From NCBI GenBank assembly GCA_900316795.1, contig ONEF01000001.1, positions 124,001-188,000 on the forward strand: DNA of 64,000 nt. Direction: 5' to 3'. The DNA comes from an uncultured Bacteroidales bacterium (lineage in GTDB: Bacteria > Bacteroidota > Bacteroidia > Bacteroidales > UBA932). A program made the position numbers and the translations under genes. The notes beneath the pieces were generated by a model that had not been told where the DNA came from, searched no databases, and saw only the letters and a program-made list of their open reading frames with translations. Of this stretch, positions 3,703 through 64,000 are shown one piece after another (position 1 is the stretch's first letter; each line of letters starts with the position of its first letter).

Positions 3703-3720
3703 CAATTGAATATTAGTACC

Positions 3721-3978: not shown

Positions 3979-4006
3979 GCCCTCTTGCCTGTTTCGACAA
4001 AAAAGT

Positions 4007-6292: not shown

Positions 6293-6461
6293 ACAATCCA
6301 AACTATTTTTCTATTTTCCCTTTTTTTACGGAGGTCATTTAGAACTTCCCCTTTATACTTGAACCATAATGTGCCCAGAACTGGGTGAGAGAACTTTTTA
6401 CTCGTTTGGCAAGAGCAGATATTGATGTAGTTTCGTTGGCTCTTCCTTCCTGGTTGCCCAG

Positions 6462-6818: not shown

Positions 6819-6930
6819 GGGTTGGTGCATTTTTTTGGGGCGGACAGAGTCAAATTTACCGCTTTCTTCAGGAGGTGCTGAAGTTTAAAAGGGCTGAATA
6901 TGGGAATGGATATCAAACTATATCCAGACA

Positions 6931-6953
6931 TTTTCTACGCAGTGAGTAGAAAA
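6931..6953. repeat. Perfect 8-bp inverted repeat
   Basis: TTTTCTAC (6931-6938) and GTAGAAAA (6946-6953) form a hairpin with a 7-base loop, between the helicase remnant and the end of the convergent TlpA-like gene. No U run follows on either strand, so a terminator role is doubtful. Confidence 0.35.
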
Positions 6954-7018
6954 TTTGGAAAAGTTGATTAGAATATCATTCTCTATCTAGATCTTTATGA
7001 GAAGAAGAAATCGCTGAG

Positions 7019-8014: not shown

Positions 8015-8059
8015 AATCTGGAGTATCTTGTGATGTTCAAGGATATCTGTTGTGGTGTT

Positions 8060-8067
8060 CAAAGATA
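8060..8067 (-). promoter_or_regulatory. -7 promoter box (TATCTTTG) of the TlpA-like gene
   Basis: On the minus strand TATCTTTG fits TAnnTTTG and lies about 46 bp before the ATG at 8014. Confidence 0.5.
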
Positions 8068-8106
8068 ATGAAATCCTGTAATCAGGAGTATGTCGGCGAT
8101 TTTTCC

Positions 8107-8114
8107 TACTTTTG
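8107..8114 (+). promoter_or_regulatory. -7 promoter box (TACTTTTG) of the tyrS unit
   Basis: TACTTTTG lies 41 bp before the ATG at 8156, which supports that start over an in-frame start at 8090 located upstream of the box. Confidence 0.5.
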
Positions 8115-8155
8115 TACGATTGACAGAAAAAAGTAAAAAAGATATAGATCATCCG

Positions 8156-9445
8156 ATGAAGAACTTTGTAGAAGAACTCAAATGGAGAGGCATGATCCAG
8201 GATATCATGCCGGGAACTGAAGAAAAACTCATGGAAGGCCCGCAGGCAGCATACGTGGGAATAGATCCAACAGCAGACAGCCTTCATATAGGACACCTTG
8301 TAAGCGTTATGATACTCAAGCACTTCCAGAAGTGCGGGCATAAACCGTTCGCTCTGGTTGGCGGTGCTACCGGAATGATTGGAGATCCGTCTATGAAGAG
8401 TGCTGAGAGAAACCTGCTGGACGAGGAAACGCTCAGGCATAACGTGGAGTGCATAAAGGCACAGCTGGGAAGGTTCCTGGATTTTGAGAGCGATGCGCCG
8501 AACAAGGCGGAGCTGGTGAACAACTATGACTGGATGAAAGACTATACGTTCATCAATTTCATCCGCGATATAGGAAAGCACATCACCGTGAACTATATGA
8601 TGGCAAAGGATTCCGTGAAGAAGAGACTGAGTACGGAATCTCGTGAAGGAATGTCTTTTACGGAGTTCAGCTACCAGCTTCTGCAGGGCTATGACTTCTT
8701 GTGGCTGTATGAGCACAAGGGATGCGTGCTGCAGCTTGGCGGAAGCGACCAGTGGGGCAACATCACTACCGGAAGCGAACTGATCCGCAGGATCCTTGGC
8801 AAGGAAGCTTTTGCAATGACCTGTCCGCTGATAAAGAAGGCCGACGGCACAAAGTTCGGAAAGACCGAGAAGGGAAACATCTGGCTGAGTGCCGAATATA
8901 CAAGCCCTTACACGTTCTATCAGTTCTGGCTGAATGTCAGCGATGAGGATGCAGAAAGATACATCAAGATATTCACGATGCTGCCGAAGGAGGAGATAGA
9001 GGCCGCCATCGCCGAGCATCGTCAGGATCCTGGCAGACGAGTGCTGCAGAAGATCCTGGCAAAGGAAGTTACGATAATGGTGCACGGACAGGCAGAGTAC
9101 GACAAGGCTTTGGACGCATCCAACATCCTCTTCGGAAAGGCTACCAGGGAGGCCCTCCAGAACCTGGACGAGAAGACCTTCCTGGCTGTGTTTGACGGAG
9201 TTCCGCAGTTTGCCCTGCCAAAGGACAAGCTCTCATCTCCGATTCTGGATCTGCTGGCTGTAGATACCCAGGTGTTCCCGTCCAAGGGCGAGGCCCGCAA
9301 GATGATCCAGGCCAACGGACTGAGCATAGACAAGGAGAAATTCACGGATATCAACGGAACCCTCTCCGAGAACCATCTGGTCAACGGCAAGTATGTGCTG
9401 GTACAGAAAGGCAAGAAGAATTACTACATCCTTAAATTCGAATAG
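8156..9445 (+). CDS. tyrS: Tyrosine--tRNA ligase
   Basis: Class I aminoacyl-tRNA synthetase that charges tRNA-Tyr with tyrosine in the cytoplasm. It is 430 residues, the usual length. Visible signatures are the HIGH element ([12 protein letters not shown]), the KMSKS-equivalent loop ([13 protein letters not shown]), the tyrosine-pocket strand [28 protein letters not shown] written here only in part as LGGSDQWGN, and a C-terminal S4 RNA-binding domain ([17 protein letters not shown]). The ATG at 8156 gives the start [12 protein letters not shown], matching the family. It leads the tight run tyrS-rbfA-lolE-like. Confidence 0.97.
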
Positions 9446-9448
9446 TTT

Positions 9449-9820
9449 ATGGAAGAGGTCAGCAAACGAGTGCAGAAAGTTCAGCGCGAGGTGCAGAGGC
9501 ATCTGGCGGAGATAGTGCGCAGCAAAGGCATGGCGTTTTTCGGCGGTGCCCTTGTTACTGTCAGTGAGGTGAGGATGAGTCCGGACCTTTCATACGCAAA
9601 GGTTTTCATAAGCTGCTTCCCGTCAGAGAAGCGGGCTGACGTGATGAAGATCCTTGAAGACAAGGCCAAAGCTATACGTGGCGACCTGGGGCGGATTGTG
9701 GCAAAGCAGCTGAGGATTGTGCCGGAGCTGGCATTCTTTGAAGATACTACGCTGGACTATGCACAGCACATAGATGACGTGCTTGCGCGCGATCCCGTAA
9801 GGCCGGAGTCTGAAGAATGA
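9449..9820 (+). CDS. rbfA: 30S ribosome-binding factor A
   Basis: RbfA (123 residues) binds the immature small ribosomal subunit near the 16S 5' helix and helps late maturation and cold adaptation. The KH-type fold is recognisable: KVQREVQRHLAEIVR, then VTVSEVRMSPDLSYAKVFIS, then the RIVPELAFFEDTTLDYAQHID motif near the C-terminus, which closely follows the family pattern. It starts three bases after the tyrS stop and ends one base before the next gene, so it is translated from the tyrS message. Confidence 0.95.
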   Translation: MEEVSKRVQKVQREVQRHLAEIVRSKGMAFFGGALVTVSEVRMSPDLSYAKVFISCFPSEKRADVMKILEDKAKAIRGDLGRIVAKQLRIVPELAFFEDTTLDYAQHIDDVLARDPVRPESEE

Positions 9821-9821
9821 T

Positions 9822-11108
9822 ATGCATCTGCCTTCCTTCATAGCCCGCAGATACCTTTTTTCAAAGGCTCACCGCAATGTGATAAACATAATATCCATTG
9901 TGAGTGCAGTGGCTATAGGGATAGGATGTATGGCCCTGATAATCATACTTTCCGTATATAACGGATTCGACAATCTTGTCGAGTCTGCCTACAACAGCTA
10001 CATACCCGATTATGTCATAGAACCCGCCAAGGGCAAGACCATATTCCTCAGCGATGAGGGAGTAAAGGCCGCAGTCAAGGAATTGCAGGAAGGCTTGGCG
10101 GTGGAAAGCGGAGGTCGTGATGCAGGTTCCGCTGTCTGCATATACCCCGTTCTGGAAGAGACAGTATATGTGCAGTATGATGTGGTTCAGTCTATTGCCC
10201 GGATAAAAGGAGTTCCGTCCGGGTATGATTCTCTGAAGCGGTTGCAGGACAACATCGTGGATGGGGATTTTGAGCTGTCTTTCGGCGACCTGCCGAGGGC
10301 TGTGGTGGAAGAAGGCCTGGCGATAAGCCTGATGCTGAGGCCGCAGTTCTCCACTCCGCTGGAAATCTACCTGCCTTCCAGGACCGAGGACATATCGCTG
10401 ATAATGCCTCAGAGCAGTCTGCTTTCCAGGGATATTCGTCCATCCGGAATCATCCAGCTTTCTTCCACAGATGACAAGGGGATCATCTATGTTCCGGTGG
10501 ATATAGCCCGTGAGCTGATGGAATACGGAGAGAAAGAATGTACCAAGATAGAAGTGTTTGTGGAAAATGGCGCAGATGCCAATGGTGGAGTTTCTGAGTT
10601 CAAAGGTTCCCGCAAAGCAAAGGCAGCCGTCAGCAAAGCAAGAAAAGCCCTTGGAGAGAGCTGTGTGCTCAAAGACCGCTACCAACAGAACGAGACCGTT
10701 TACAAGATGATGAGGGCAGAGAAGTTCGCAATCTATATGATACTTCTGTTTGTGGTTGCGATTATATCGGTGAACCTCCTCTCCAGTCTTTCAATGTTGA
10801 TAATTGAAAAGAAGGAAGATATCGGGACATACCGGGCTATGGGGATGAATGACAGCACGATACGGAAGACTTTCTTGTTGCACGGGTGGCTGGTCTGCAT
10901 TTCCGGCGCGCTTGTCGGAATCATTGTGGGGCTGATTCTTTGCTGGATACAGCACAGGTGGGGCGTGATACCTCTTCCGGGAAACTTTTTGGTGAACAGC
11001 TATCCGATAGAGGTTAAGCTGACCGATGTCCTCCTTGCCCTTGTGTCCGTAGCAGCTGTTGGGTTTGTAATGGCTTACATTCCAACCAGAAGCATCAGAG
11101 AGGGTTGA
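9822..11108 (+). CDS. LolC/LolE-family ABC transporter permease
   Basis: A 428-residue inner-membrane protein with the LolC/E layout: one helix near residues 20-45 (INIISIVSAVAIGIGCMALI), a long periplasmic domain, then three C-terminal helices (FAIYMILLFVVAIISVNLLS, LVCISGALVGIIVGLILCWI, ALVSVAAVGFVMAYIPTRSIR) forming the FtsX-like domain. The family extracts lipoproteins from the inner membrane with the ATPase LolD. The opening FIARRYLFSKAHRNVINIIS is typical of Bacteroidetes LolE-like proteins, which often follow rbfA. No LolD-type ATPase is in the window. It starts one base after the rbfA stop. Confidence 0.9.
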   Translation: MHLPSFIARRYLFSKAHRNVINIISIVSAVAIGIGCMALIIILSVYNGFDNLVESAYNSYIPDYVIEPAKGKTIFLSDEGVKAAVKELQEGLAVESGGRDAGSAVCIYPVLEETVYVQYDVVQSIARIKGVPSGYDSLKRLQDNIVDGDFELSFGDLPRAVVEEGLAISLMLRPQFSTPLEIYLPSRTEDISLIMPQSSLLSRDIRPSGIIQLSSTDDKGIIYVPVDIARELMEYGEKECTKIEVFVENGADANGGVSEFKGSRKAKAAVSKARKALGESCVLKDRYQQNETVYKMMRAEKFAIYMILLFVVAIISVNLLSSLSMLIIEKKEDIGTYRAMGMNDSTIRKTFLLHGWLVCISGALVGIIVGLILCWIQHRWGVIPLPGNFLVNSYPIEVKLTDVLLALVSVAAVGFVMAYIPTRSIREG

Positions 11109-11148
11109 TTTGAGAAAAGAAAGATTCAATTGTTAAAATATTATCGCG

Positions 11149-11709
11149 ATGAAAAAAGCAGTAAAGACTCTTGGCATTGTTGTCATTTCGGCTGTTATTC
11201 TCAGCTGCAGGAACAACTCCGGAAACAATCCGGCTGAAGGTACAAAAGACACCGTAGCCAATGCCGCACCATCAGCGGCACAGGTTGTGGAACAATCTGA
11301 GACACAGCAGATAGACACTCTTGCGGTATTTGACACAATCAATGGAATGTTGAAATCTCTTAAGGAGGAACAACTGTGGTCTAAAGATATTTTCACCCCG
11401 GCTTATTATGAGGTTTGCCAGAAGCTGAATGAGTTCTCAGACGGGGACTCTCTTTGGGAGCTTGGCAGTATCCAGGAGGTAATGTCAGTGGAACTTACAG
11501 ATGTAACAGATTTCAAGATGCTTGACCCCACCCACGCGGAAGCTGAGGCTATGCTCGAGTGCAAGGATATAGATTCAGAAAACAAGGGAACGGAGTTCCG
11601 CACTCTGAGCCTGGTGCTTGAAGGCGGAGCTTGGCTGATAGATGATGTGGCTGGCTCAAAGCAAGACAAGATACAAGCCGTTGCTGAACACGAGGCATCA
11701 TCCAAATAA
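11149..11709 (+). CDS. Small lipoprotein, DUF3828-like
   Basis: A 186-residue lipoprotein with lipobox VILSC at about residues 16-20. After a low-complexity Asn/Ala linker, the mature domain has the pattern of secreted DUF3828-type proteins: FTPAYYEVCQKLNEF near its start and a terminal strand EGGAWLIDDVAGSKQD. Such proteins are of unknown function. It sits 40 bp after the LolE-like permease and three bases before the alanine symporter, so it is probably part of the same transcription unit. The family assignment rests on pattern only. Confidence 0.75.
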   Translation: MKKAVKTLGIVVISAVILSCRNNSGNNPAEGTKDTVANAAPSAAQVVEQSETQQIDTLAVFDTINGMLKSLKEEQLWSKDIFTPAYYEVCQKLNEFSDGDSLWELGSIQEVMSVELTDVTDFKMLDPTHAEAEAMLECKDIDSENKGTEFRTLSLVLEGGAWLIDDVAGSKQDKIQAVAEHEASSK

Positions 11710-11712
11710 TAT

Positions 11713-13176
11713 ATGGCGAGTTTCAACGATTTTCTCTGGACATACATCCTTGTGGCTGTGCTGCTTGGCTGTGCCGTCTGGTTTACTCTGCGAACCCGCG
11801 GAGTGCAGTTCCGGATGATAGGGGAGATGTTCCGTCTTCTGAAGGGAAGCAACAAAAGCGGATACCGGGATATAGACCGTCAGAGAGCTGTTGCGGGCAA
11901 CAAGAGGAAGATCTCATCCTTCCAGGCCTTTGCCGTATCTCTGGCTTCCAGCGTGGGAACCGGAAACCTTGCCGGTGTCGCCATAGCCATTGCGGTTGGA
12001 GGACCAGGGGCTGTTTTCTGGATGTGGGTTATCGCGTTAATGGGGGCGGCTACGGCTTTTGTGGAGGCTACCCTGGCCCAGCTTTTCAAGCAGAAATCCG
12101 AAGGAGGTTTCATAGGAGGACCGGCATATTATATCCGCCGAGGTTTGAAGAATCCTTACCTTGCAGCATTGTTCGCGGTTCTTCTGACCGTCACTTTCGG
12201 GCTGAGCTACAATTCCATCCAGAGCAATACAATCGGCGATGCGGTGGTTGTGGCCCTCAACCTGGACAGCGTTCTTCCGTATCAGGTAAGCCTTCTTGGA
12301 GTTACCGTTCCGGCTGCAAAGGTTATCGTAGGTGTTCTGCTTGCAGCTCTTTCTTTCACGGTGGTTTTCGGCGGCATAAAGCGTATAGCCAAAGTCAGCA
12401 GCGTGCTTGTTCCGGTAATGGCACTGGCATATCTGGCCCTGGCTTTGTTCGTGCTTCTGCGCCACATAGACCTTATCCCGTCTGTGTTCTCTCTTATCTT
12501 TGAAAACGCATTCGGGATTCAGCAGGTAACCGGAGGGGGACTCGGGGCTACTATGATGATAGGCATAAAGAGAGGTCTTTTCTCCAACGAGGCCGGAGAA
12601 GGATCCGCGCCTAACGTTGCCGCTACGGCAGATGTCTCCCATCCTGTAAAGCAGGGGCTTATGCAGGCCTTGGGGGTGTTCGTCGATACGCTTGTGGTGT
12701 GCAGCTGCACGGCGTTCATCATCCTTTTCAGCGGAACTCACGCATCTGGAGACCTGAACGGGATAGCCCTTACGCAGGCCGCTCTTGAGAGTGAAATCGG
12801 ACGCTTCGGAACCTTCTTCATAGCCGCGGCCATTTTCCTGTTCGCTTTCTCCAGCATAATCGGAAACTATTACTACGGAGAGGCCAACATAAGATTCCTG
12901 ACCAAAGACCGTCACCGCTGGATTCTTTGGGCTTTCAGAGGGTTGTCAGGAGGTTTGGTGGTGTTTGCCGGAGTATGCGCTTCACTGGATATTGTCTGGA
13001 CAATCGGTGACATCTGCATGGGACTTCTGACTCTGGTGAACATATTCGCGATAGTACAGCTCGGGAAATTCTCATTCCGTCTGCTGAAAGACTACAAGCG
13101 TCAGAAGAAAGAAGGAAAAGATCCCGTATTCAAGCGCAGCCAGATGCCGGAAGTTGATGTGGACTGCTGGGATTAG
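11713..13176 (+). CDS. AGCS-family sodium:alanine (amino acid) symporter
   Basis: A 487-residue protein with about 10-11 transmembrane segments, matching the alanine or glycine:cation symporter family (SLC38-like APC fold; AlsT/DagA/AgcS). Diagnostic phrases are SLASSVGTGNLAGVAIAIAV, IGIKRGLFSNEAGEGSAPN and FAFSSIIGNYYYGEANIRF, which line the substrate and Na+ sites. It should import small neutral amino acids using the sodium gradient. It starts three bases after the lipoprotein stop and ends the tyrS-led run. Confidence 0.93.
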   Translation: MASFNDFLWTYILVAVLLGCAVWFTLRTRGVQFRMIGEMFRLLKGSNKSGYRDIDRQRAVAGNKRKISSFQAFAVSLASSVGTGNLAGVAIAIAVGGPGAVFWMWVIALMGAATAFVEATLAQLFKQKSEGGFIGGPAYYIRRGLKNPYLAALFAVLLTVTFGLSYNSIQSNTIGDAVVVALNLDSVLPYQVSLLGVTVPAAKVIVGVLLAALSFTVVFGGIKRIAKVSSVLVPVMALAYLALALFVLLRHIDLIPSVFSLIFENAFGIQQVTGGGLGATMMIGIKRGLFSNEAGEGSAPNVAATADVSHPVKQGLMQALGVFVDTLVVCSCTAFIILFSGTHASGDLNGIALTQAALESEIGRFGTFFIAAAIFLFAFSSIIGNYYYGEANIRFLTKDRHRWILWAFRGLSGGLVVFAGVCASLDIVWTIGDICMGLLTLVNIFAIVQLGKFSFRLLKDYKRQKKEGKDPVFKRSQMPEVDVDCWD

Positions 13177-55551: not shown

Positions 55552-57135
55552 TTAGGCTGGTTGCCAGAGGTATAGCTTGTCGGAGCGGCGGAGTTTCTCA
55601 GCGATAGGAATGGAGCAGAGGTCGCCTTTGACAGCTTTCTGGACCGGTTTGAGTTCAACTCTTATCTCAGCGATTTTGTGCTCGATGCATCCTGTTGACG
55701 GACCGATGATGAGGATCTCGTCTCCCACATTGAGCTCGCCGGCCTCGACAAGAACTTCCGCTACGCCGAGTTTGGAGAAGTAGTTTGTGATTTTTGCGGC
55801 ATAGACTTTCTTCCGGCTGGCCTTGTTGCCGTAAACTTCGCTCCACTCGCCGAGGCGGGCTCCCATGTAGTAGCCGTCCCAGAATCCGCGGTTGAACACT
55901 CCGGAGAGTTTGTCCTTGAGTTGAGCCTTCAGTTCCGGGGTATAGTTTCCCATGACCTCAGAAGAAGGGTTTGCAGCATCAGGTTCTGGAGAGTTTGTAG
56001 CGGAAGCATCAGGGGCACTGGTGATTGCGGATGCTTTGGATGGGCTTGCTGGTTCTGTGGCTGGGGTGTTGGTGTTGGAGCTTGTGGTGACTGCGGATTC
56101 TTCGGATGGGCTTGCTGGTTCTGTGGCTGGGGTGTTGGTGTTGGAGCTGGTGGTGGTGACTGCGGATGCTTTGGATGGGCTTGCTGGCTCTGTGGCTTGG
56201 GTGCTGGTGTTGGAGCTGGTGTTAGAGCTGGTGGTGACTGCGGATGCTTCGGATGGGCTTGCTGGTTCTGTGGCTGGGGTGTTGGTGATGGTCTCGGTGC
56301 AGGCGTCGGCGGCTTGACGATAGGCGGAGGTGACAATCTTCACGTACTCGGCGCTGCGGGCGCGGCCTTCGATCTTGAACACGGATATTCCGGCGTCGAT
56401 GATCTTGTCTATGAACTCAATGGTGCAGAGGTCCTTTGGACTCATGATGTACTTGTTGTCAATCTCGAGCTCACGACCGGTTTCAAGATCGGTGACACGG
56501 TAGCCTCTGCGGCAAAGCTGATAGCAACTGCCTCGGTTTGCGGATGCTCCGTATTCCTGGAGGCTGAGGTAGCATTTCCCGGAAATGGACATGCACAGGG
56601 CTCCGTGGACGAAAAGCTCAAGACGCAACAGCTGCCCGCTTGGACCGCACACGTTCTCTTCTTTGATACGACGGCTTATGTCCTTGACCTGCGGGAGAGT
56701 AAGTTCGCGGGCCAGGACTATCACATCCGCAAACTGAGCGTAGAACTTGGCGGCCTCAAAGTTTGAGATGTTCATCTGGGTTGAGATGTGAATCTCTATG
56801 CCCAGGCTTCTGGCCATCTGGATCACGGCCATGTCGGATGCTATCACGGCTGATATTCCGGCATCGCGAGCCGCTTCCAGAGCTTTCCGCACATCTTCCA
56901 TCTCCGTCTGGTAAACTACGATGTTGAGCGTAAGGTATGTCTTTACGCCGTGCTGTCGGCAAATGCGTACCACCTCTGCGAGGTCTTCATTGGTAAAGTT
57001 GTTTGCCGAGTGGCTCCTCATGTTGAGGTTCCCGACTCCGAAGTAAACGGAATCCGCTCCTCCTTGTATAGCCGCCATCAGGCACTCGAAGTTGCCGGCC
57101 GGCGCCATGATCTCTATATGCTGCTTTTCTGACAT
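55552..57135 (-). CDS. U32-family peptidase-like (TrhP/RlhA type) with internal minisatellite
   Basis: 527 residues. Residues 1-285 and about 395-527 match U32 proteins (HIEIMAPAGNFECLMAAIQG, HISTQMNISNFEAAKFYAQF, four-Cys cluster GALCMSISGKCYLS and NRGSCYQLCRRGY, SPKDLCTIEFIDK). Known U32 enzymes TrhP and RlhA hydroxylate uridine-34 of tRNA or C2501 of 23S rRNA and need an Fe-S-type Cys cluster. Between them lies a roughly 110-residue Thr/Ser/Pro/Ala insertion with four copies of NTPATEPASPSEASAVTTSS-like units (bases about 55953-56300). The break falls between the TIM-barrel-like part and the C-terminal domain, where a flexible linker may be tolerated. A -7 box lies at 57161-57168. Confidence 0.9.
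   Translation of the reverse strand: MSEKQHIEIMAPAGNFECLMAAIQGGADSVYFGVGNLNMRSHSANNFTNEDLAEVVRICRQHGVKTYLTLNIVVYQTEMEDVRKALEAARDAGISAVIASDMAVIQMARSLGIEIHISTQMNISNFEAAKFYAQFADVIVLARELTLPQVKDISRRIKEENVCGPSGQLLRLELFVHGALCMSISGKCYLSLQEYGASANRGSCYQLCRRGYRVTDLETGRELEIDNKYIMSPKDLCTIEFIDKIIDAGISVFKIEGRARSAEYVKIVTSAYRQAADACTETITNTPATEPASPSEASAVTTSSNTSSNTSTQATEPASPSKASAVTTTSSNTNTPATEPASPSEESAVTTSSNTNTPATEPASPSKASAITSAPDASATNSPEPDAANPSSEVMGNYTPELKAQLKDKLSGVFNRGFWDGYYMGARLGEWSEVYGNKASRKKVYAAKITNYFSKLGVAEVLVEAGELNVGDEILIIGPSTGCIEHKIAEIRVELKPVQKAVKGDLCSIPIAEKLRRSDKLYLWQPA
55953..56300 (-). repeat. In-frame minisatellite inside the U32 gene
   Basis: Four long copies of a 57-66 bp unit, for example gcggatgcttcggatgggct then tgctggttctgtggctgggg on the plus strand. 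Copy lengths vary by multiples of three, keeping the frame. Confidence 0.85.
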
Positions 57136-57402: not shown

Positions 57403-57723
57403 ATGCTTATCACAACTACACAATCCGTAGAAGGTCACAGGATTCTTGAGTACAAGGGTATCGTAACCGGAGAAACCATCATCGGGGCAAACTTCTGGAA
57501 AGACTTCAAAGCCAGCATCCGCGACATAGTAGGAGGGCGCAGCGGTTCTTACGAAAAAGTTCTGATTGAGGCCCGTGAAACATCGCTGAACGAAATGGCA
57601 CAGAGGGCAGCCTCCTGGGGCGCCAACGCAATAATCGGCGTTGACATAGATTACGAGACAGTCGGTCAGAACGGCTCTATGCTGATGGTTTCCGTCAGCG
57701 GCACAGCTGTGGTTATACAGTAA
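57403..57723 (+). CDS. YbjQ/UPF0145-family protein
   Basis: A 106-residue protein matching YbjQ (UPF0145; sometimes called heavy-metal-binding): [60 protein letters not shown], ending [11 protein letters not shown]. The family forms pentameric or decameric rings; function uncertain. Its last 11 bases overlap the end of the convergent acetyltransferase. Confidence 0.93.
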
Positions 57724-58282
57724 TCTTCTTGATGAACTTGGCGGGAACACCGCCCACCACGGTCATCGGAGCCACGTCTTTGGTGACCACCGCACCTGCA
57801 GCCACAATGGCTCCATTGCCGATGGAAACTCCCTGAAGGACAGTGGCATTTGAGCCAATCCACACATTCTTCCCGATGTGGATAGGGGCGGAGTGCATCC
57901 CGGTCCGCTTAGTGGGGTCTTCCGAGTGGTTGAGGGTTGCCAGCACCACATTGTGCCCTATGAGGCTTCCGTCGCCGATGAAAATGCCGCCCTGATCCTG
58001 GAACTTGCATCCCATATTGATGAACACCCTTTCGCCGATGACAGTGTTTACCCCGCAGTCTGTGTAAAACGGCGGGAACATTCCGAGATCCTTTGGCAAC
58101 TCCCTCTGCATCAGTTCCTCCAGCAATGCGTGCAGCTCCTCCGGAGTGTGATATTTTCCGTTGATTTCAGCCGTGATCCTGAGAGCCCTCTGGCTCAGCG
58201 AATGAAACATCAGATGCACATCGCTCCAGCCGCCGATCTCCCTCGGCACAGCCATATATTCCCTGAATTCCTGTATTGTCAT
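57713..58282 (-). CDS. Hexapeptide-repeat sugar O-acetyltransferase (Maa/LacA-like)
   Basis: 189 residues. An N-terminal maltose/galactoside acetyltransferase helix region ([20 protein letters not shown]) precedes a left-handed beta-helix of hexapeptide repeats ([36 protein letters not shown] with the catalytic His, [20 protein letters not shown]). It transfers acetyl from acetyl-CoA to a sugar hydroxyl. It ends convergent with ybjQ. Confidence 0.92.
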
Positions 58283-58483
58283 ATTTGCAAGATTCGTTTC
58301 ACAAAGCGTTCAAGCAACCGATAGGAAGAACATACACGCCATCCTTTCTTCGATCTTCTGAGTGCCAAGGTACACCTTATTATTCGATTAAACCAATCAT
58401 TCTTGCAAAAATCTCAAAAAGGTGTGAGATATGGAAGAGCAGAAATCTAAAAAAGGTGCGAATGACATCGTTTTGAAGCCCAG

Positions 58484-58771
58484 ATGCTGACAGCCAGCGG
58501 TAACAATCTTTTTTTCTATAGTAAGTCATCAGAAGAAGCCGAGGAACGAATGGAAATAGACTTCTTGCTTCAAAAGGACAAAGTGACAAGTCGCCACAAT
58601 ATCCGTCCTATAGAGGTCAAAAGCGGCAAGAACTACACGTTATCTTCCCTAAAGAAGTTTATGAATAAGTTTGGAGAGAATATAACCACTCCTACTGTTT
58701 TACATACATCTGACTATAAAGTAGAGAATGGTATCACCTATCTTCCGCTTTACATGACACCCTTATTGTAA
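58484..58771 (+). pseudogene. C-terminal remnant of a DUF4143 AAA-family ATPase
   Basis: The 95-residue frame covers only the end of the common ATPase family with DUF4143: AQ-type start MLTASGNNLFFYSKSS, then MEIDFLLQKDKV, IRPIEVKSGKNYTLSSLKKF and the final YLPLYMTPLL. Full proteins are about 400 residues with the P-loop domain first; no such sequence lies upstream, so this is a fragment. It marks the left boundary of the AT-rich right-hand region. Confidence 0.7.
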
Positions 58772-58795
58772 GGTAAGCCTTCTGTAAATCACACG

Positions 58796-58981
58796 TTACT
58801 TCTTCAAACGTCTGATGATTCTGAACGGAAGCCCAACCGCCAGTATGATTATGAACACCGCAATGAGGAATCCTGGAGACAACCACTTCTCCCTGTCTGT
58901 TACAAACAGCGCACAGGCAACCACCACAACTATTTCGATGAGAAATACGATTCCGATTATTTTCAAGATGGTTTTGAGCAT
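58796..58981 (-). CDS. Small two-helix membrane protein
   Basis: 61 residues with two hydrophobic helices (IIGIVFLIEIVVVVACALFV and FLIAVFIIILAVGLPF) and a basic end RIIRRLKK. No family recognised. It is separated from the GIY-YIG-like gene by 40 bp on the same strand and could be the last gene of that unit. Confidence 0.55.
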   Translation of the reverse strand: MLKTILKIIGIVFLIEIVVVVACALFVTDREKWLSPGFLIAVFIIILAVGLPFRIIRRLKK

Positions 58982-59021
58982 ACAGGTTTTTGATACTTAA
59001 AAATTGGGTTAATAGTAAATG

Positions 59022-59552
59022 CTATTTTCGATATTCCTTCCTAATATGCTTTAAACTGTTGATTGTTTGTTTTTCAACACATTTGTTATGTTGGATGTTC
59101 AGAGGATAATAATTCTTGCACAATTCATTTTCTTCGCAGGCCCTTGATTCATCTAAAGTCTTTTTACCGAAATACTCAAAATAGCAGTGTTCATCCAAAA
59201 AAGTATTCACAGATTTTTCAGATACTGACATGTTTAAGCGTAATAATGCAGATAGAGTCTGTCGAAGGGTTGACAGGTAGCCCGATTTGACTGAAGACAT
59301 GCTGTGGTGCTGGCAGATATGCCATTTTGCCCTGTCTTTAAGGTTCTTGGCTATACCAAAATAGAGTGCATAGCAGTCCTTTCCGTCAATAACTTTTTTT
59401 TGTAGTTTCCTTGTACACGCAGATTCCAGAGGCTTTAGTATCTTTTGCATACCTTGGTTGTCAAACCAGAAACAATAACAGCCCGGGACTGTTGGAACAG
59501 AAGCGTTCTTTTGTTTGAACCGGTTTCTTAAATTCAAAACAGATACTTTCAT
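59022..59552 (-). CDS. GIY-YIG-like nuclease-domain protein
   Basis: 176 residues. The pattern VPTVPGCYCFWF, then DCYALYFGIAKNLKDRAKWH, corresponds to the first strand (GIY-like) and the second (YxG, followed by Lys-Asn-Leu-x-x-Arg) of GIY-YIG nucleases; a later helix carries HCYFEYFGKK as the possible Glu motif. It is AT-rich and close to a DUF6884-like gene (42 bp). Whether it cuts DNA, RNA or is inactive is open; the first Tyr is replaced by Cys-Tyr (GCY). Confidence 0.65.
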   Translation of the reverse strand: MKVSVLNLRNRFKQKNASVPTVPGCYCFWFDNQGMQKILKPLESACTRKLQKKVIDGKDCYALYFGIAKNLKDRAKWHICQHHSMSSVKSGYLSTLRQTLSALLRLNMSVSEKSVNTFLDEHCYFEYFGKKTLDESRACEENELCKNYYPLNIQHNKCVEKQTINSLKHIRKEYRK

Positions 59553-59594
59553 ATGAATAGTATGTATATTGTTATTTTATTGGTTTATCAATTG

Positions 59595-60062
59595 CTATCT
59601 ATCGTAAATGTGCTTGTTTTTGCGTTGTAAAAACTGTACTATGTAACCATTGCCTTTAAGATGATTCTCTTTGTAAGGCATCTTAAAGTTTTCTATCCCA
59701 TTTGGTTGTTTCGTACTTTTTAAGATGCCTTTACAATAGTTTTGTCCTGCGAGAAGAATAAAAGTGTCTCTCTTTGTGTCAAGACCTTCTTCATTCATTT
59801 GTTTCAAAACCATTGTTCCCCACTTTCTTATTTCACAGGCTTTTTTGTCATTTAGGGTCTCGTTGTATGTTCCTATCTTCGTTTCTGGATTTAGCAACCC
59901 GTATTTAGCTGAAAGGATATAAGTCTTGTCTGCTTTGAGTTGTTGGGAATAAATCCAGGCTTCTTTGAATAAGGTGCTCGTGTAAAGCTCTTTTGCCTTA
60001 ACCTTCTGATTTGAGTTAAGTTTTAGCTTTGTCTTTACGCAGGAAACTAATACTACTTTCAT
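59595..60062 (-). CDS. DUF6884/YaaA-like protein
   Basis: 155 residues. Start VVLVSCVKTKLKLN with the Cys-x-Lys pattern, then KELYTSTLFKEAWIYSQQ, ILSAKYGLLNPETKIGTYNE (Ser-Ala-Lys-Tyr-Gly-Leu-Leu) and ETLNDKKACEIRKWG. This matches DUF6884-type proteins, distantly related to YaaA and to deazaguanine tgt-like accessory domains, often found in mobile or defence-like regions. Activity unknown. It lies between the 56-residue protein (37 bp upstream) and the GIY-YIG-like gene. Confidence 0.7.
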   Translation of the reverse strand: MKVVLVSCVKTKLKLNSNQKVKAKELYTSTLFKEAWIYSQQLKADKTYILSAKYGLLNPETKIGTYNETLNDKKACEIRKWGTMVLKQMNEEGLDTKRDTFILLAGQNYCKGILKSTKQPNGIENFKMPYKENHLKGNGYIVQFLQRKNKHIYDR

Positions 60063-60099
60063 GACATCAGTTATTTTGTAAGTGTTAGTAATGAAAGAA

Positions 60100-60270
60100 T
60101 TATCTTTTTTTGGTTAGGAGTGTTTTTATTACAGTGCCACCAATTTTTCTTTCTAGTCCTTGTCTTGTTGTGGGAATTCCAATTCTAAGTGCAATCTTTT
60201 GCTTTAATGCGGATATTCCTAATGCTCTTTTCCAAGAAAAGGAAAGCCCCGGTATACTCTTCTTTCTCAT
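60100..60270 (-). CDS. Small basic conserved protein, 56 residues
   Basis: The ATG at 60270 is one base from the stop of the ion channel gene, suggesting coupled translation. The peptide is basic: PGLSFSWKRALGISALKQKI, then ARLR-like ALRIGIPTTRQGLERKIGG, ending TLLTKKR. The phrase WKRALGI...K.KIA...GIPTT..G..RKIG looks like a conserved small-protein family I have seen annotated only as hypothetical; that recollection is uncertain. It could bind nucleic acid. Confidence 0.65.
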   Translation of the reverse strand: MRKKSIPGLSFSWKRALGISALKQKIALRIGIPTTRQGLERKIGGTVIKTLLTKKR

Positions 60271-60271
60271 C

Positions 60272-61990
60272 TTATATTTCTGTTAAAGGGAAACCGATGG
60301 ATTTAGTTGTGAGTTCTTCTGGAACAACAAATTCTTTATCTGGCTCAATAATGTTTCTGAAGGAGTTTGCCAAACTCTGTGCAATCTCTATTCTTCTTGA
60401 ATCCCAACAGAAGACTTTGAAAGCTATTCTGAGATACACGGAGTTTACATTTGAAGCATTTTTTGTGTGTCTTGTAAAGACCTTTGGCGAGGACGATGAA
60501 TAATAACGTTGGAAATCCGAATGATAGCCGTATTTTTCCTCGATTTGCCTGGAGGTAACTCCATATAAAAGATCTAATTTGTCTATGTCTTTGACAGTTA
60601 GTGTTTCTGATTTGTATGTCTCATCTCCTTTTGCCCCTCCTGCCGTCCAATGGATTTGTGTTGGAAGAGAGGGCTGAGCGGCCCCACCACAAGCAAGAAT
60701 GGTAAACGACCAGGCACCTTCTCTTGCCGTGAGTTTTTCGTAGTCTCTTAAAAAGGCACTAAGGTTTTCCTCATCGTTCTCGGTGTTTATCAGATAGTAT
60801 GATTTATATGGGTAATGTTCTCCGATTTCACGGCTGAGATAATTGAAATTGCCAAGTAAAGCTATGTAATATGAAAAATTTGAGATGCCCGGATCTATAT
60901 AACCGGACGTATTGACGATGGTTACAGAAGATCCCCTGTCTATACAGCAGCCATAACATGTGTTTATCGGAACATGCTCAACGGCCAAGCAGTCGGCCGC
61001 TTGTTCTTCAACGGGATGGGTTGCAGATAAGTTTACGATGTGGAGTTCTTGGCATTTGTTGGTAACATCTATTATATCATCTGTCTTGATTCCAAGCTTT
61101 GTCTGTAGGTCAATTATTTTGGTGTAAGGAGGAACAACCTGAAACCCTGTTGGTCTGTCCAGTGTTCTTTCAAAGGATGTTATTATTTTTCTTTTGTTTT
61201 CTTTGTCCTGCTGCTCTTTAAGGTCTTCTTCTATTGCTTCTGTAAAGCCAGAACCTATCAGGCCTGCTGGCACAGCAAAAATGGCAATACCCAATATTCC
61301 TATCAAGAATGCAATAATATGTCCGGCGGTGGTAACCAGTGGCTCATCTGCCACTTTCCCAGGGTCGCCAATATATTTAGAAAAAGCCCATACAATTGAA
61401 GACCATCCATTGTCAATCATCTCAGGATTTCTTTGATGTTCAAAGAAATAAAGCAGAAATGCAAGGATGATTGTTACAATGAAGAGAAATTGCACAGAAA
61501 TAATCATTTCAGCTCTTTTAGACTTGATAGCTCTTGTCAGTATTCTGAAAGATTTCATATATCGGAATATCCTGAGCAGACGTGCTATCCTGAACAGGCG
61601 AGCGATTCTGAATGATCTCAAGGCAGAAACTGGCATCGGAATCAGATAGTTTATCCAGAACGGATATGTTGCCAGTATATCAATTATTCCATAAAAGGAG
61701 AAGCAGTATTTGATTCGTCCCCAGAATCCTTTGTATTTGGGGTTTATTTCGCTTGCAGCCCAAATCCTGAGAGATACCTCTATCGTGAAGAATATCTGGA
61801 CAACCCAATCTATAATCAGCAATACCTTTTCAAGTCTTTCTGAGATGGTAAAGGTTGAAATAAAAGTTTCTATTATGCTGACAAGTATAAATCCCATAAT
61901 GACATAATCAAAGATGTTATGCCATTGTTTGGTGTGCAGGTTGTCATCAAAGACTCTTGCCAGTTCTTTTTTGAACTTTGAGAGATTCAT
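60272..61990 (-). CDS. Voltage-gated-like ion channel with large C-terminal domain
   Basis: 572 residues. Six helices: S1-S3 (FDYVIMGFILVSIIETFIST onward), an Arg-rich S4 near residues 117-150 (RSFRIARLFRIARLLRIFRY), S5 and S6 (TAGHIIAFLIGILGIAIFAV). The pore loop at residues about 190-208 reads SSIVWAFSKYIGDPG, lacking the TVGYG filter of K+ channels. After a charged helix comes an approximately 300-residue soluble domain with a Cys cluster (INTCYGCCIDRGSSV) and YPYKSYYLINTENDEENLSA; I do not recognise it. It sits in a co-directional cluster with TerB-like and OmpA-like genes, so a stress or defence effector role is possible. Confidence 0.8.
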   Translation of the reverse strand: MNLSKFKKELARVFDDNLHTKQWHNIFDYVIMGFILVSIIETFISTFTISERLEKVLLIIDWVVQIFFTIEVSLRIWAASEINPKYKGFWGRIKYCFSFYGIIDILATYPFWINYLIPMPVSALRSFRIARLFRIARLLRIFRYMKSFRILTRAIKSKRAEMIISVQFLFIVTIILAFLLYFFEHQRNPEMIDNGWSSIVWAFSKYIGDPGKVADEPLVTTAGHIIAFLIGILGIAIFAVPAGLIGSGFTEAIEEDLKEQQDKENKRKIITSFERTLDRPTGFQVVPPYTKIIDLQTKLGIKTDDIIDVTNKCQELHIVNLSATHPVEEQAADCLAVEHVPINTCYGCCIDRGSSVTIVNTSGYIDPGISNFSYYIALLGNFNYLSREIGEHYPYKSYYLINTENDEENLSAFLRDYEKLTAREGAWSFTILACGGAAQPSLPTQIHWTAGGAKGDETYKSETLTVKDIDKLDLLYGVTSRQIEEKYGYHSDFQRYYSSSSPKVFTRHTKNASNVNSVYLRIAFKVFCWDSRRIEIAQSLANSFRNIIEPDKEFVVPEELTTKSIGFPLTEI

Positions 61991-62023
61991 CTGTAAGAAA
62001 GAGGGATTACTAAAAAGTTATAT

Positions 62024-62263
62024 TTAGCTTCTCTTCAGAGCTTCTTTTGCATTTTCTATCTCACGCTTCCATTGTTCAATCTTGCGGTCGTGATAGTAAG
62101 CTTTGTCTATCTTTGACTTTCTATAGGATGCTTTATTAGAAGGTACTGATGTTCCTTTAATCATTCTTGCGTAGTAATCGTTATCTCTTTTCTTCTCTTC
62201 TTTTTCTTTTGCGATATACGCTCTGAGGTCAATGATTCTTTTCTTATAGTATTCTTTGCTCAT
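62024..62263 (-). CDS. Charged coiled-coil protein, 79 residues
   Basis: Highly charged helical protein: KKRIIDLRAYIAKEKEEKKR, a short non-helical middle (MIKGTSVPSNKASYRKSK), then a second helix HDRKIEQWKREIENAKEALK. It has no signal and looks like a two-helix hairpin. It lies 33 bp before the ion channel gene and 9 bp after the small membrane peptide gene. Confidence 0.7.
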   Translation of the reverse strand: MSKEYYKKRIIDLRAYIAKEKEEKKRDNDYYARMIKGTSVPSNKASYRKSKIDKAYYHDRKIEQWKREIENAKEALKRS

Positions 62264-62272
62264 AGTTGTTCC

Positions 62273-62410
62273 TTATTTCTTGAAAAGCAGTCTATCTACT
62301 GGGTCTAGGGTTATTCCAAAGCACAGATTGAGAATAATGTCCACGATTAGTAGGATAATGATAATTGCGATTAATATCTTTATCCACCTTGGCGTTCTTT
62401 TTCTTCCCAT
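62273..62410 (-). CDS. Single-helix membrane peptide, 45 residues
   Basis: Basic start MGRKRTPRWIK, one hydrophobic helix (ILIAIIIILLIVDIILNLCF) and a short end LDPVDRLLFKK. The ATG at 62410 is chosen over an upstream one that would read through the hairpin at 62445-62478. Confidence 0.6.
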   Translation of the reverse strand: MGRKRTPRWIKILIAIIIILLIVDIILNLCFGITLDPVDRLLFKK

Positions 62411-62444
62411 TTTAATATATGCAGATATAATAATTAATATGTAA

Positions 62445-62478
62445 GACAGGCGGTATAGTTCCACTAACACCGCCTGTC
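62445..62478 (-). terminator. Perfect 10-bp hairpin within the operon
   Basis: GACAGGCGGT (62445-62454) and ACCGCCTGTC (62469-62478), 14-base loop, 26 bp after the stop of the 103-residue gene. The tail is A/T-rich without a clear T run, so partial termination or RNA stabilisation is as likely as full stop. Confidence 0.5.
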
Positions 62479-62503
62479 ACGGTAACAAAGCTATTTAATG
62501 CTA

Positions 62504-62815
62504 TTACTTCCCTGAGGATGTCAAGGTAACCTTGTTGTCAACCAGTTTTGAGTCATCTGGAGATGCCACCTGTACGCCAATGCCGTACATTTCGCTGAGC
62601 TTGGTCTCAAAAGTTCCAACCTGAGTGTTTCCGCCAACAGATAACTTTCCTCCAGCAGCCTTAGGGTCTCTAATCTCTGCGAGGGTAGCTTCTTCATTAG
62701 CAAACTGCTTGCATGCTTTCGTCGTGTAAACTCTCAGAGTTGAGCCGAAAGCCTTTTTAAAATTGGCCTTGAGGGTTTTTACCTTCATTCTGCCGTCAAT
62801 GTTAAAATCTGCCAT
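62504..62815 (-). CDS. Conserved unknown 103-residue protein
   Basis: Start MADFNIDGRMKVKTLKANFK, then KAFGSTLRVYTTKACK, a TLAEIRDPKAAGGKLSVGG stretch and KLSEMYGIGVQVASPDDSKL near the end. It looks like a small alpha/beta soluble domain. I believe related proteins occur in varied bacteria with the same KTLKxxFKxxFGxTLRVY core, but I cannot name a family. It sits between the TerB-like gene (33 bp upstream) and the membrane peptide gene. Confidence 0.7.
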   Translation of the reverse strand: MADFNIDGRMKVKTLKANFKKAFGSTLRVYTTKACKQFANEEATLAEIRDPKAAGGKLSVGGNTQVGTFETKLSEMYGIGVQVASPDDSKLVDNKVTLTSSGK

Positions 62816-62848
62816 AATTGTGAAATTTATTGGTTAATAATGGTTTAA

Positions 62849-63262
62849 TTATTCGAAACTAACTTCAAGTTCAGGCTCTGTCTTTACAAGATCTGCAACC
62901 ATCAGCATGACAAACTGATGCTCTAAATCCAGAGCGTCGGCCATTGCCAGGAGATTTGTCATCTCGTCGTAGGAGAGAACATTGTCGCTGATTATAACCT
63001 GAAGAACTGCCTCCATGAGAATTCCGATTTCTTCGTCATCAACCTTTTCAGCGGCTTCAACGATATATTCGGTAGCTTTCTCTGCAGAGTACTTCTTAAT
63101 TCTTGCTATCTCGCCATCTACACATTTAACGAATTCATCTTCTTTGAACTCAAGTGCTTCCGCGATTTCTTTAACAGCTTCTTTTTCAGCCTCATTGTAT
63201 TCTGCGTCTGCCCAGACAGCAGCTGCGATAAAAGATGCAATGGTTTTAATGTCTGTTTTCAT
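62849..63262 (-). CDS. TerB-like helical protein
   Basis: 137 residues, all helical, strongly acidic. The pattern of an N-terminal SFIAAAVWADAEYNEAEKEA with Asp/Glu spaced as in TerB, then EALEFKEDEFVKCVDGE and a second half IISDNVLSYDEMTNLLAMAD repeating the same motif, fits TerB (tellurite-resistance associated, metal-binding). TerB proteins lie at the membrane face and are linked to stress and phage-response complexes. Three bases separate it from the basic protein gene downstream. Confidence 0.8.
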   Translation of the reverse strand: MKTDIKTIASFIAAAVWADAEYNEAEKEAVKEIAEALEFKEDEFVKCVDGEIARIKKYSAEKATEYIVEAAEKVDDEEIGILMEAVLQVIISDNVLSYDEMTNLLAMADALDLEHQFVMLMVADLVKTEPELEVSFE

Positions 63263-63265
63263 GAT

Positions 63266-63463
63266 CTAGAAATTGAAAAGTCTTTTGATTCTGTTTTTGA
63301 GGCTTCCTTTAGCTCTTCTGGCTTTTGCCATTCTAGCTGCTATGGCCTTACCTTCTTTTGTTCTCAAGTCCACTTTGCCTGAAGCGGTCTTCTTGACTGT
63401 TGATTTTTTTGGGGATGCCTTCTTGGCAACAGTCTTTTTAGCAGTTGTTTTTGATGTAGCCAT
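63266..63463 (-). CDS. Lys/Ala-rich basic protein with one KEGKA motif
   Basis: 65 residues: a Lys/Thr/Ala tail-like start (ATSKTTAKKTVAKKASPKKS), then the motif VDLRTKEGKAIAARMAKARR and a basic end. Composition is like histone H1-like bacterial proteins, but the motif is distinct and recurs twice in the next gene. Probably binds nucleic acid or acidic membrane surfaces. It lies 9 bp after the neighbouring gene. Confidence 0.7.
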   Translation of the reverse strand: MATSKTTAKKTVAKKASPKKSTVKKTASGKVDLRTKEGKAIAARMAKARRAKGSLKNRIKRLFNF

Positions 63464-63472
63464 AATTATGTT

Positions 63473-63736
63473 TTATTTGTTTTTACGTTTTAGTGCCCTT
63501 CTAGCTTTTGCCATTCTGGCGATTATTGCCTTTCCTTCCTTTGTCCTCTTGTCAACGGTTCCGTCTGCATTCTTCTTGACGGTCTTGGCGTTGACTTTCT
63601 TTTTAAGGAGTGTCTGGTTTCTCTTCATTGTTTTCTGGGCCTTTGCAACTCTTGCCGCAATTGCTTTACCTTCCTTTGTCCTGCGATCTACATGGCCAGA
63701 GGCGGTTTTCTTTGTTTTAGTTTTTGAGGTTGCCAT
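63473..63736 (-). CDS. Lys/Ala-rich basic protein with two KEGKA motifs
   Basis: 87 residues from ATG 63736. Motif copies: VDRRTKEGKAIAARVAKAQK and VDKRTKEGKAIIARMAKARR, separated by a basic linker (KRNQTLLKKKVNAKTVKK). Each copy is preceded by a short [AS]-[SD]-G. It starts with MATSKTK as does the next protein, so the two are paralogues. The longer upstream frame overlaps the OmpA gene stop and is not used. Confidence 0.7.
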   Translation of the reverse strand: MATSKTKTKKTASGHVDRRTKEGKAIAARVAKAQKTMKRNQTLLKKKVNAKTVKKNADGTVDKRTKEGKAIIARMAKARRALKRKNK

Positions 63737-63761
63737 TTTTTTATTGTTTAATAGTTGCTCA

Positions 63762-64000
63762 TTATTTAACAACGATAAATTCTGTTCTCCTGTTTTCTGG
63801 AGCATTAGGGTTGTCTGGATTCTTTAACTTGGAAGATCCATAACCGATATATTCAAGCCTGCCTGCATCAACCCCTTCATTGTTAATCAGAAAATCAACT
63901 GCAGCTTTTGCTCTTGCAACAGAAAGTTTCTGATTGAAATCAGCATCACCTTCGGCAGAAGTGTGACCTTCAAGTTTAAGTTTGAGATTCGGGTTGTTTT
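63762..64000 (-). CDS. OmpA-family C-terminal domain protein (partial at right edge)
   Basis: Only the last ~78 residues are present. They match the peptidoglycan-binding OmpA domain: LKLKLEGHTSAEGDADFNQK, then LSVARAKAAVDFLINNEGVD, GRLEYIGYGSSKLKNPDN and ENRRTEFIVVK at the end. The N-terminal part lies beyond the window. It is the first visible gene of the co-directional run to 59022, with 25 bp before the next ATG. Confidence 0.88.
   Translation of the reverse strand, partial: NNPNLKLKLEGHTSAEGDADFNQKLSVARAKAAVDFLINNEGVDAGRLEYIGYGSSKLKNPDNPNAPENRRTEFIVVK

Follow-up and report, generated by a model that had tools for sequence, protein, structure and literature searches.

What could eleven genes have in common that encode, on one strand, a peptidoglycan-binding membrane protein, an ion channel, nuclease-like proteins and several short basic or coiled-coil proteins? 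These genes occupy the right end of the stretch analysed here, 64,000 nucleotides of an uncultured Bacteroidales bacterium (assembly GCA_900316795.1, contig ONEF01000001.1, positions 124,001 to 188,000), which is referred to as the window. Sequence comparison shows that they belong to one recurrent co-directional unit, which appears in related genomes as a block at differing sites, and that in roughly half of the loci a covarying RNA stands ahead of the first labelled gene. Our tentative preference is to regard the unit as an accessory operon of the Bacteroidales, both mobile and modular, which would encode an envelope-anchored, leader-gated conflict system, either anti-phage or anti-element. 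A response to stress or phage, with whose logic a first-pass annotation had compared the mix of genes, is an inference.

The evidence begins with recurrence. A scan of named genomes, anchored on the N-terminal domain (N-domain) of the unit's OmpA protein, gave 132 loci, of which 80 were kept; many of them are fragments of metagenome-assembled genomes (MAGs), and counts over the 80 are not counts of independent events because near-identical relatives were kept. They are titled Bacteroidales, Bacteroidia, Bacteroidetes or lower taxa (families, genera, candidate genera), the lower ranks being taken by us to belong to Bacteroidales, Bacteroidia or Bacteroidetes. At least three of the seven window families are present in 70 loci, at least five in 46 and none in two, and all 465 window-family matches (kinase excluded) lie on the strand of the anchor. 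The first-pass annotation had made its grouping depend on the genes occurring together elsewhere, and this they do, also above chance in 198 unselected genomes of the order.

Extent and components of the unit

All eleven minus-strand open reading frames (ORFs) from 59022 to the window end were confirmed, with intergenic distances of -44 to 42 bp, and the earlier description of a closely spaced, co-directional, AT-rich gene run is therefore correct. The overlap of 44 bp would vanish if the upstream KEGKA gene (63473..63805) began at an internal ATG at 63736, a likely start that agrees with the 85-aa homologue in locus L042 (genome G589, MAG Tb.RUG.340). GC content per kb is 0.357-0.400 over 59001-64000 and 0.43-0.56 elsewhere in the window, save 4001-7000 (0.368-0.414); the composition thus differs from nearly all of the window, as had been claimed, but not from this one comparably low region. 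The eleven genes are real, but the limits first given to the operon were too narrow on both sides: the genes form the 3' part of a unit that runs from 58796 to 67764 in window coordinates, beyond the window end, and that takes in the gene for a 61-aa membrane protein on one side and s65, a leader RNA, a kinase and the divergently oriented REG on the other. The continuation was read from locus L002 (G000:C20:183001-203000, where G000 is the window's genome and window position equals L002 position plus 59000). Its components are listed below.

58796..58981, minus strand: membrane protein of 61 aa with one helix (by eye), closing the shared block, no Pfam match
59022..59552, minus strand: GIY-YIG nuclease (PF20815), accessory, GIY_YIG_2 at E 1.4e-24
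59595..60062, minus strand: DUF6884 protein (PF21818; PADLOC PDC-M57A), accessory, Pfam 5e-33, PADLOC 3.6e-37
60100..60270, minus strand: s56, 56-aa basic protein of an orphan family
60272..61990, minus strand: channel with a Kv-like voltage-sensor/pore domain and an orphan C-terminal domain (C-domain) of about 305 aa, Ion_trans at 4.2e-23
62024..62263, minus strand: cc79, 79-aa predicted coiled coil (by eye) of an orphan family
62273..62470, minus strand: tm65, one-helix membrane peptide (by eye)
62504..62815, minus strand: p103, adaptor-like orphan domain of two beta-alpha-beta units
62849..63262, minus strand: TerB-like protein, PF05099 at 1.2e-5
63266..63463, minus strand: KEGKA basic protein 1
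63473..63805 (likely start 63736), minus strand: KEGKA basic protein 2
63762-64673 (3' part in the window, 63762..64000), minus strand: OmpA gene, with orphan N-domain, one helix and peptidoglycan-binding OmpA domain
64682-64879, minus strand, beyond the window: s65
64952-65080, minus strand, beyond the window: leader RNA core
65115-65145, minus strand: promoter candidate, TTG-(17-22)-TAnnTTTG
65225-65251, minus strand, beyond the window: terminator-like hairpin
65310-66713, minus strand: Ser/Thr kinase, PF00069 at 2e-29
66961-67764, plus strand: REG, divergent putative regulator of 267 aa, no Pfam match

The 430-bp gap between s65 and the kinase contains the promoter candidate and the leader RNA. 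The candidate is the sole match on the minus strand of L002:1-8900 to the motif TTG-(17-22)-TAnnTTTG, which we take to be of Bacteroidetes type, and the terminator-like hairpin is weak on its own because 15 such sites occur in 9 kb against 9.2 expected. DNA homologous to the 61-aa gene lies directly 3' of s56 in L042 (71% identity), and cc79 is 70-73% identical to three homologues. The part of the OmpA gene beyond position 64000, to which attention had been drawn, was completed to 64673, and its N-domain recurs with the unit families in the 80-locus set. An "ATPase remnant" that had been noted to the left (58484-58771, plus strand) could not be upheld, as it has only sub-cut-off matches (DUF2492 0.001, DUF4143 0.0044) and lies outside the shared block.

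Matches above the Pfam cut-off were obtained with GIY_YIG_2, DUF6884, Ion_trans, TerB (26.0 bits, where the cut-off is 24.4), OmpA (2.7e-17) and Pkinase, which agrees with the cell-wall-binding OmpA domain, the TerB-like protein and the voltage-gated-like channel recognized earlier by eye. REG, the window's cc79, the N-domain alone and the 61-aa gene have zero Pfam matches, and p103, the KEGKA proteins (HC2, 0.055), s56 (ubiquitin families, 0.041-0.099), tm65 and s65 have sub-cut-off matches only. Six components are thus without an above-cut-off Pfam match: the OmpA N-domain, p103, s65, cc79, s56 and the channel C-domain. Profile searches against solved structures were unconvincing for p103 (best 0.75), s65 (0.047) and the N-domain (0.67), and gave no match for the channel C-domain. 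Among ten unit proteins scanned with NCBIfam nothing exceeded a curated cut-off. The PADLOC scan, applied without curated cut-offs to ten unit proteins (s56, s65, one KEGKA protein and the 61-aa gene excluded), returned kinase families (best 3.9e-31), PDC-M57A for DUF6884 and, weakly, ZorB for OmpA (3.8e-5) and PDC-S48 for TerB (5.9e-5); a separate PADLOC scan of REG gave zero matches. Assignment to a PADLOC system was rejected, since only accessory members match, besides the general kinase and the weak hits to the OmpA domain and TerB.

Recurrence and variable content

Within the 80 loci p103 is the most frequent family (71 loci, 151 matches), followed by cc79 (55), KEGKA (50), TerB (49), the channel (47, part of them represented by a second channel family), s65 (47), s56 (37) and the kinase (37). 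GIY-YIG is found in three loci, DUF6884 in two, both with GIY-YIG, and tm65 in one; the anchor stands alone in L090 and in L110, the latter a 3-kb contig. GIY-YIG and DUF6884, which had been counted among the genes of the operon, are indeed present in the window, but at these frequencies they are exchangeable accessories and not core members.

Clustering of all ORFs of the 80 loci adds further families, which were named from their clusters, with Pfam applied to a single representative or a few per family: REG (47 loci), a PD-(D/E)XK-like family whose pattern was read by eye (34), a pyroglutamyl peptidase (23), a lipoprotein (22), X461 with PDDEXK_4 (15), a KAP ATPase (14) and the second channel family (9). 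At least one nuclease-like gene (PD-(D/E)XK-like family, X461 or GIY-YIG) is found in 52 loci and either of the two channel families in 49. When the added families are included, 729 of 729 matches are on the same strand, partly by construction because all but REG were chosen on one strand.

The unselected genomes provide a second view. In these 198 genomes p103 was detected in eight, the OmpA N-domain in nine (two marginal) and cc79 in four; the channel was found at full length in four and as a match of any length in 79. Overlap was evaluated with the seven strong N-domain genomes. All four cc79 genomes fall within these seven (hypergeometric 5.6e-7), and the N-domain accompanies p103 in four of its eight genomes (3.8e-5) and the full-length channel in three of four (1.1e-4).

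Gene order, fusions and exchange of modules

Is the order of the genes conserved as well? Some neighbours are clearly preferred, with KEGKA-TerB adjacent 41 times against 6.5 in within-locus shuffles and p103-cc79 26 times against 6.7. Many other pairs are near expectation, for example OmpA-TerB (8 against 6.1). The idea that the same order recurs elsewhere therefore applies to the preferred neighbours, while the remainder is shuffled.

Domain fusions are recurrent. The p103 domain is fused N-terminally to OmpA in L096, L098, L099 and L112 and C-terminally in L063; it is fused to s65 in L067 and L068 and stands together with s65 in larger proteins in L077 and L093, and ten loci carry a fusion of s65 with OmpA. 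Comparison thus shows p103 and s65 recombining as domains with differing partners. It also shows that nuclease modules vary between related units: in the window DUF6884 and GIY-YIG are inserted between s56 and the 61-aa gene, and L042 has neither but carries, after the 61-aa gene, a 466-aa protein and a PDDEXK_4 protein (2.3e-14) that also matches PADLOC PDC-S26 (5.1e-13).

The shuffled order and variable content could suggest that unrelated small accessory genes accumulated at a hot spot, without a joint function. This explanation is highly improbable and was already disfavoured, as it does not account for 465 of 465 matches on one strand, the KEGKA-TerB preference, the recurrent fusions and the presence of the block at different chromosomal sites.

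Three smaller arrangements were observed. L039 (G120, 8309-11244) has p103, DUF6884, an exonuclease-like gene (by eye), p103 and GIY-YIG, with the other window families absent. L145 (G389, 2290-3876), from the same phylum, has the small set p103, a 113-aa gene, the OmpA N-domain and KEGKA, possibly a minimal or ancestral form. In the window's genome a diverged second cc79 gene (L141, G000:C15:168029-168259) lies beside a 385-aa gene and a lipoprotein-like gene.

Genomic position and mobility

The position of the block was compared between the window's genome and G589. What G589 has in common with the window is limited to pieces of the block 58794-67470, with DNA identity of 66-76%, and the flanks of L042 have no match at E 1e-5 to the 39-kb stretch around the window's unit. 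These flanks align instead to G000:C19 at 78-79%, where they meet within 1-2 bp, and L042:7469-17646 is accordingly an insertion of 10.2 kb when compared with this site, which is empty in the genome of the window. The reciprocal situation nearly holds, as judged from the alignments: G589:C6 has the window's flanks but lacks the unit. There about 190 bp separate the match to 68156 from that to 55559, the 2.2-kb segment 55559-57716 is inverted, and window positions 57716-58794 and 67470-68156 are unmatched. Taken singly, either site would fit insertion and deletion equally well; both together show, at the level of sequence, the unit at different places.

The block contains no recognizable recombinase, and neither a target-site duplication nor terminal repeats were seen by eye at the insertion. 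The unit has lower GC than its flanks in 47 of 57 loci (mean difference 0.043), the other 23 of the 80 having too few labelled genes (under six) or too short a flank (under 3 kb). A plasmid or phage origin was considered and rejected on the collection searches reported below for p103, the OmpA N-domain, s56 and the channel C-domain (plasmids only).

Structure of the channel and of p103

The channel model has Kv-like transmembrane helices and resembles KCNQ/Kv channels in Foldseek (4.1e-9), and the S4 arginines R134, R137, R140 and R143 are invariant in 40 sequences, which places it in the Kv superfamily. In the filter, YIGDPG, residues Y206, D209, P210 and G211 are invariant and G208 almost so over the 40 rows. 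The C-domain block is confidently modelled (pLDDT 84-97 save the last two residues), yet it has no sequence match in the PDB and no above-cut-off Pfam match; structural relatives, if any, are not visible because the Foldseek matches listed (best 50 of 758) are all channels.

A natural fusion of p103 with the OmpA N-domain (L098) was modelled with a mean pLDDT of 78.8, p103 forming its two beta-alpha-beta units. The top four Foldseek matches of this model are tandem ubiquitins/ISG15 at E 0.05-0.16, none being below 0.001; among 53 p103 members one each matches Ubiquitin_2, RA and OTU1_UBXL at 0.0095-0.057, and comparison with the ubiquitin profile gave an hhalign probability of 0.2%. A ubiquitin-like fold for p103 would be tentative at most and was not adopted, the Foldseek ranks being suggestive but below significance and the profile comparison giving no support.

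The leader RNA

The 246 nt upstream of s65 fold at -82.3 kcal/mol (z -5.98; 0 of 200 shuffles as good), and the leader is 82.7% identical to that of L042 over about 200 nt. In an alignment of seven related leaders 12 of 25 predicted pairs changed on both sides, namely seven of seven in helix H1, three of nine in H2 and two of nine in the others. A search with the first model (R1) gave 37 matches below E 0.03 in 81 sources, including the seven model sequences and one cut by a contig end, all on the strand of the operon; its other three matches (E 0.15-0.55) are antisense to true matches. The second model (R2; 57 sources searched) adds L093 and L063. The RNA is thereby found in 38 of the 80 loci, besides the window's unit, and in 38 of 38 it lies 5' of every labelled unit gene.

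Within 36 full matches, aligned by fitting to the model, which favours the model, 95.0% of the H1 and H2 cells are paired, against 70.0 in shuffles and 32.6-48.0 after sliding, and 13 of 16 pairs have both-side changes (9.4 in shuffles); the covariation score is 0.660 against 0.163. These measures are inflated by related rows. Further pair types were not above shuffles (31 against 29.0; 130 of 500). Of the 36, 30 have a TAnnTTTG box no more than 130 nt upstream and 34 have four or more consecutive T no more than 62 nt downstream, both counted without a shuffle control. A transcription attenuator or riboswitch is a leader whose terminal intrinsic terminator switches with a signal; the leader described here, in which a conserved structure and a T run were observed, may be of this kind.

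No match at the Rfam gathering score was obtained in L002:1-9000; in ten related loci the sole match was DUF805b, outside the leader, and a sub-threshold search with two leaders found nothing near the cut-off of any family. The DUF805b cis-regulatory RNA itself lies inside unit loci L111 (12176-12210) and L095 (2979-3013), both among the ten searched.

Is the RNA restricted to the unit? It is present in 56 of the 198 genomes, with up to 13 copies, and this occurrence rules out a unit-specific RNA. In a phylum sample it was found in 13 of 296 genomes, 12 besides the window's genome, all of the same order or class. REG is present in 26 of the 38 loci that have the RNA and in 21 of the 42 others, a difference short of significance (p 0.11). 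In nine of 15 contexts outside the unit a co-directional ORF begins 74-102 nt after the RNA; in L177, L183 and L185 the ORF is at -50 to +6 (it may begin later), in L180 at 156 and in L182 at 608, and L176 has none. A second copy in the window's genome (L174, G000:C14:20078-20189) lies 78 nt before an operon with an MmeI/Eco57I-like methylase and a T5orf172/ResIII protein.

These contexts bear on a further alternative, compatible with any reading of the unit, according to which the RNA would be transcribed separately, between a promoter and a terminator of its own, and would serve the system as a small RNA and not as an attenuator. The promoter-like box, the T run and the long double-stranded-RNA-like rod would suit it; the spacing of 74-102 nt before a co-directional ORF is the position of a leader, and we consider the alternative rather unlikely.

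Two arrangements around the RNA were also seen. In L182 (G185, about 2567-8845) a kinase and a divergent REG homologue are followed by the RNA and then by a different operon, with 359-aa and 206-aa proteins (no Pfam match) and a DnaJ-zinc-finger-like 495-aa protein; a control cassette of kinase, REG and RNA may be reused there. In L183 and L187, from two genomes, the RNA has an SLFN/AlbA_2 gene on its immediate 5' side (Pfam for L183, by eye for L187) and an HTH95-like gene (by eye) on its 3' side.

Relation to known systems

Several described systems share single features with the unit. Zorya has a MotA-like ZorA adjoining a MotB-like ZorB, and the unit likewise has a membrane protein with a peptidoglycan-binding OmpA/MotB-like domain. 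However, its ZorB match is confined to the OmpA domain, the N-domain is different, and neither a ZorA/MotA-like partner nor ZorC/D was found among the ten unit proteins scanned. Adaptor-domain NTP-dependent conflict systems are built of small shuffled domains and swappable effectors, a logic which the unit resembles; no vWA, MoxR, STAND or protease core was found among the unit proteins scanned. Subsystems of that class with transmembrane and OmpA peptidoglycan-associating domains have been described (eLife 2020, PMC7159879), and "TerB" is not mentioned in the available part of that source.

The TerB-like domain recalls the tellurite/stress ter systems. In ter and TerY-P systems TerB is accompanied by proteins of the TerD/TerC/TerY class; in the unit proteins scanned only TerB is above cut-off, TerD, TerY and TerF are absent, and a sub-cut-off TerC match falls on the TerB protein itself. 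The KAP ATPase of 14 loci relates the unit to KAP NTPase phage exclusion and Qat, the scanned member matching PifA at 5.4e-32 and QatA at 1.4e-21, but it is absent from the window's unit and is one exchangeable member among many. With Kv channels the unit's channel shares the S4 arginines and the fold, the filter and the large orphan C-domain being different. CBASS and Thoeris, which work through signal nucleotides, are marked by a nucleotidyltransferase or a TIR synthase, and neither was found in the unit proteins scanned (Pfam and PADLOC; NCBIfam for ten proteins). The earlier statement that no described system has this gene set agrees with our searches of databases and open-access literature, in which no description of the unit or of its leader RNA was found by title and abstract start.

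Function of the unit

How could such components act together? Transcription would start at the Bacteroidetes-type promoter and run through the rod-like leader with its terminator-like U run; attenuation would hold expression back until a signal releases it, and the kinase and the divergent gene might set the threshold. The OmpA protein would tether a cytoplasmic platform to membrane and peptidoglycan, on which p103 and s65 could dock partners. Once triggered, the voltage-sensor channel, with its C-domain as receiver, would depolarize the membrane, and the nucleases, or in other loci the KAP ATPase, would attack nucleic acid, so that the infected cell is stopped. TerB, KEGKA, cc79 and s56 may be structural or nucleic-acid-binding helpers.

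On the one hand, co-occurrence, the single strand, the fusions, the block with its empty site, the differing nuclease modules and the KAP ATPase suggest a conflict system, and the second RNA copy ahead of the Eco57I/ResIII-like operon in the window's genome may be counted in its favour. On the other hand, a number of observations weigh against it. The p103, OmpA N-domain and s56 sequences had no match in the plasmid and phage collections searched, the channel C-domain had none in the plasmid collection, the sole collection searched with it, and p103 was absent from the viral contigs in a search that covers close relatives only; in these collections there is therefore no direct phage or plasmid link. 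Forty-two of the 80 loci are without an RNA match, and in 40 of them the sequence ahead of the first labelled gene is 450 nt or longer, though weak matches were possibly missed. The RNA is itself no evidence for defence, because it occurs widely where the unit is absent and, in several of the 15 other contexts, stands ahead of genes for secreted-looking proteins. The p103 domain that lies C-terminal to the OmpA domain in L063 is difficult to reconcile with a purely cytoplasmic p103, because the OmpA domain should be periplasmic. The channel has YIGDPG in place of TVGYGD, the signature filter of K+-selective channels, and hence no canonical K+ filter. Finally, the pyroglutamyl peptidase, the lipoprotein, an outer-membrane barrel (10 loci), DUF4230 (10 loci) and, in some loci, BspA-type leucine-rich repeat (LRR) proteins are atypical as defence effectors.

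The main rival reading is an envelope or ion-homeostasis stress module, in which the peptidoglycan-bound OmpA protein would sense wall or turgor, the kinase would relay, and channel, lipoproteins and barrel would tune the ion balance and the envelope, with nucleases and KAP ATPase as passengers. Either of two channel families in 49 loci, the OmpA-type anchor, lipoprotein 437, the DUF4230 pair, the Phenol_MetA_deg barrel and the peptidase all agree with this, and we regard it as possible, if doubtful: nuclease-like genes in 52 loci and a PifA-like KAP ATPase fit it badly, and varying nuclease modules with a patchy, mobile distribution are unusual for a housekeeping stress response. LRR_5 proteins in L046, L091 and L094, together with the barrels, might alternatively form the business end of an island for antagonism or surface interaction (toxin, immunity, contact with host or competitor). 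This seems improbable, as the same LRR proteins bear s65, which is elsewhere fused N-terminally to the OmpA protein, no secretion genes were recognized among the families scanned, and most core proteins have no export signal by eye.

If the unit is a conflict system, it could even represent a new class of immune system, with a peptidoglycan-tethered platform, p103 and s65 recruiting exchangeable effectors, and control by kinase and RNA, the latter possibly a sensor, for example of a foreign RNA-processing activity or of transcription shut-off; we consider this extension unlikely. The newness of the unit would lie in its composition, and not in the kind of its function if phage defence is true. 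In either case the dominant bacterial order of gut and rumen gains a recurrent system of several genes, at least six of whose protein components have no above-cut-off Pfam match, together with evidence that the block moves and that modules are exchanged. A structured RNA family without Rfam match, widespread in Bacteroidales, has also come to light.

Low-complexity repeats near the unit

In-frame low-complexity repeats were seen by eye in the neighbourhood, at 55552-57135 in the window and at 7961-8764, 9669-10727, 10832-12241 and 13891-15735 in L002. The genes that bear them look otherwise ordinary: a U32-type peptidase, REG, a polyprenyl synthetase, an RsgA-like GTPase and an antiporter (all names save REG by eye). 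A tandem array is located at 56019-56291 of the window.

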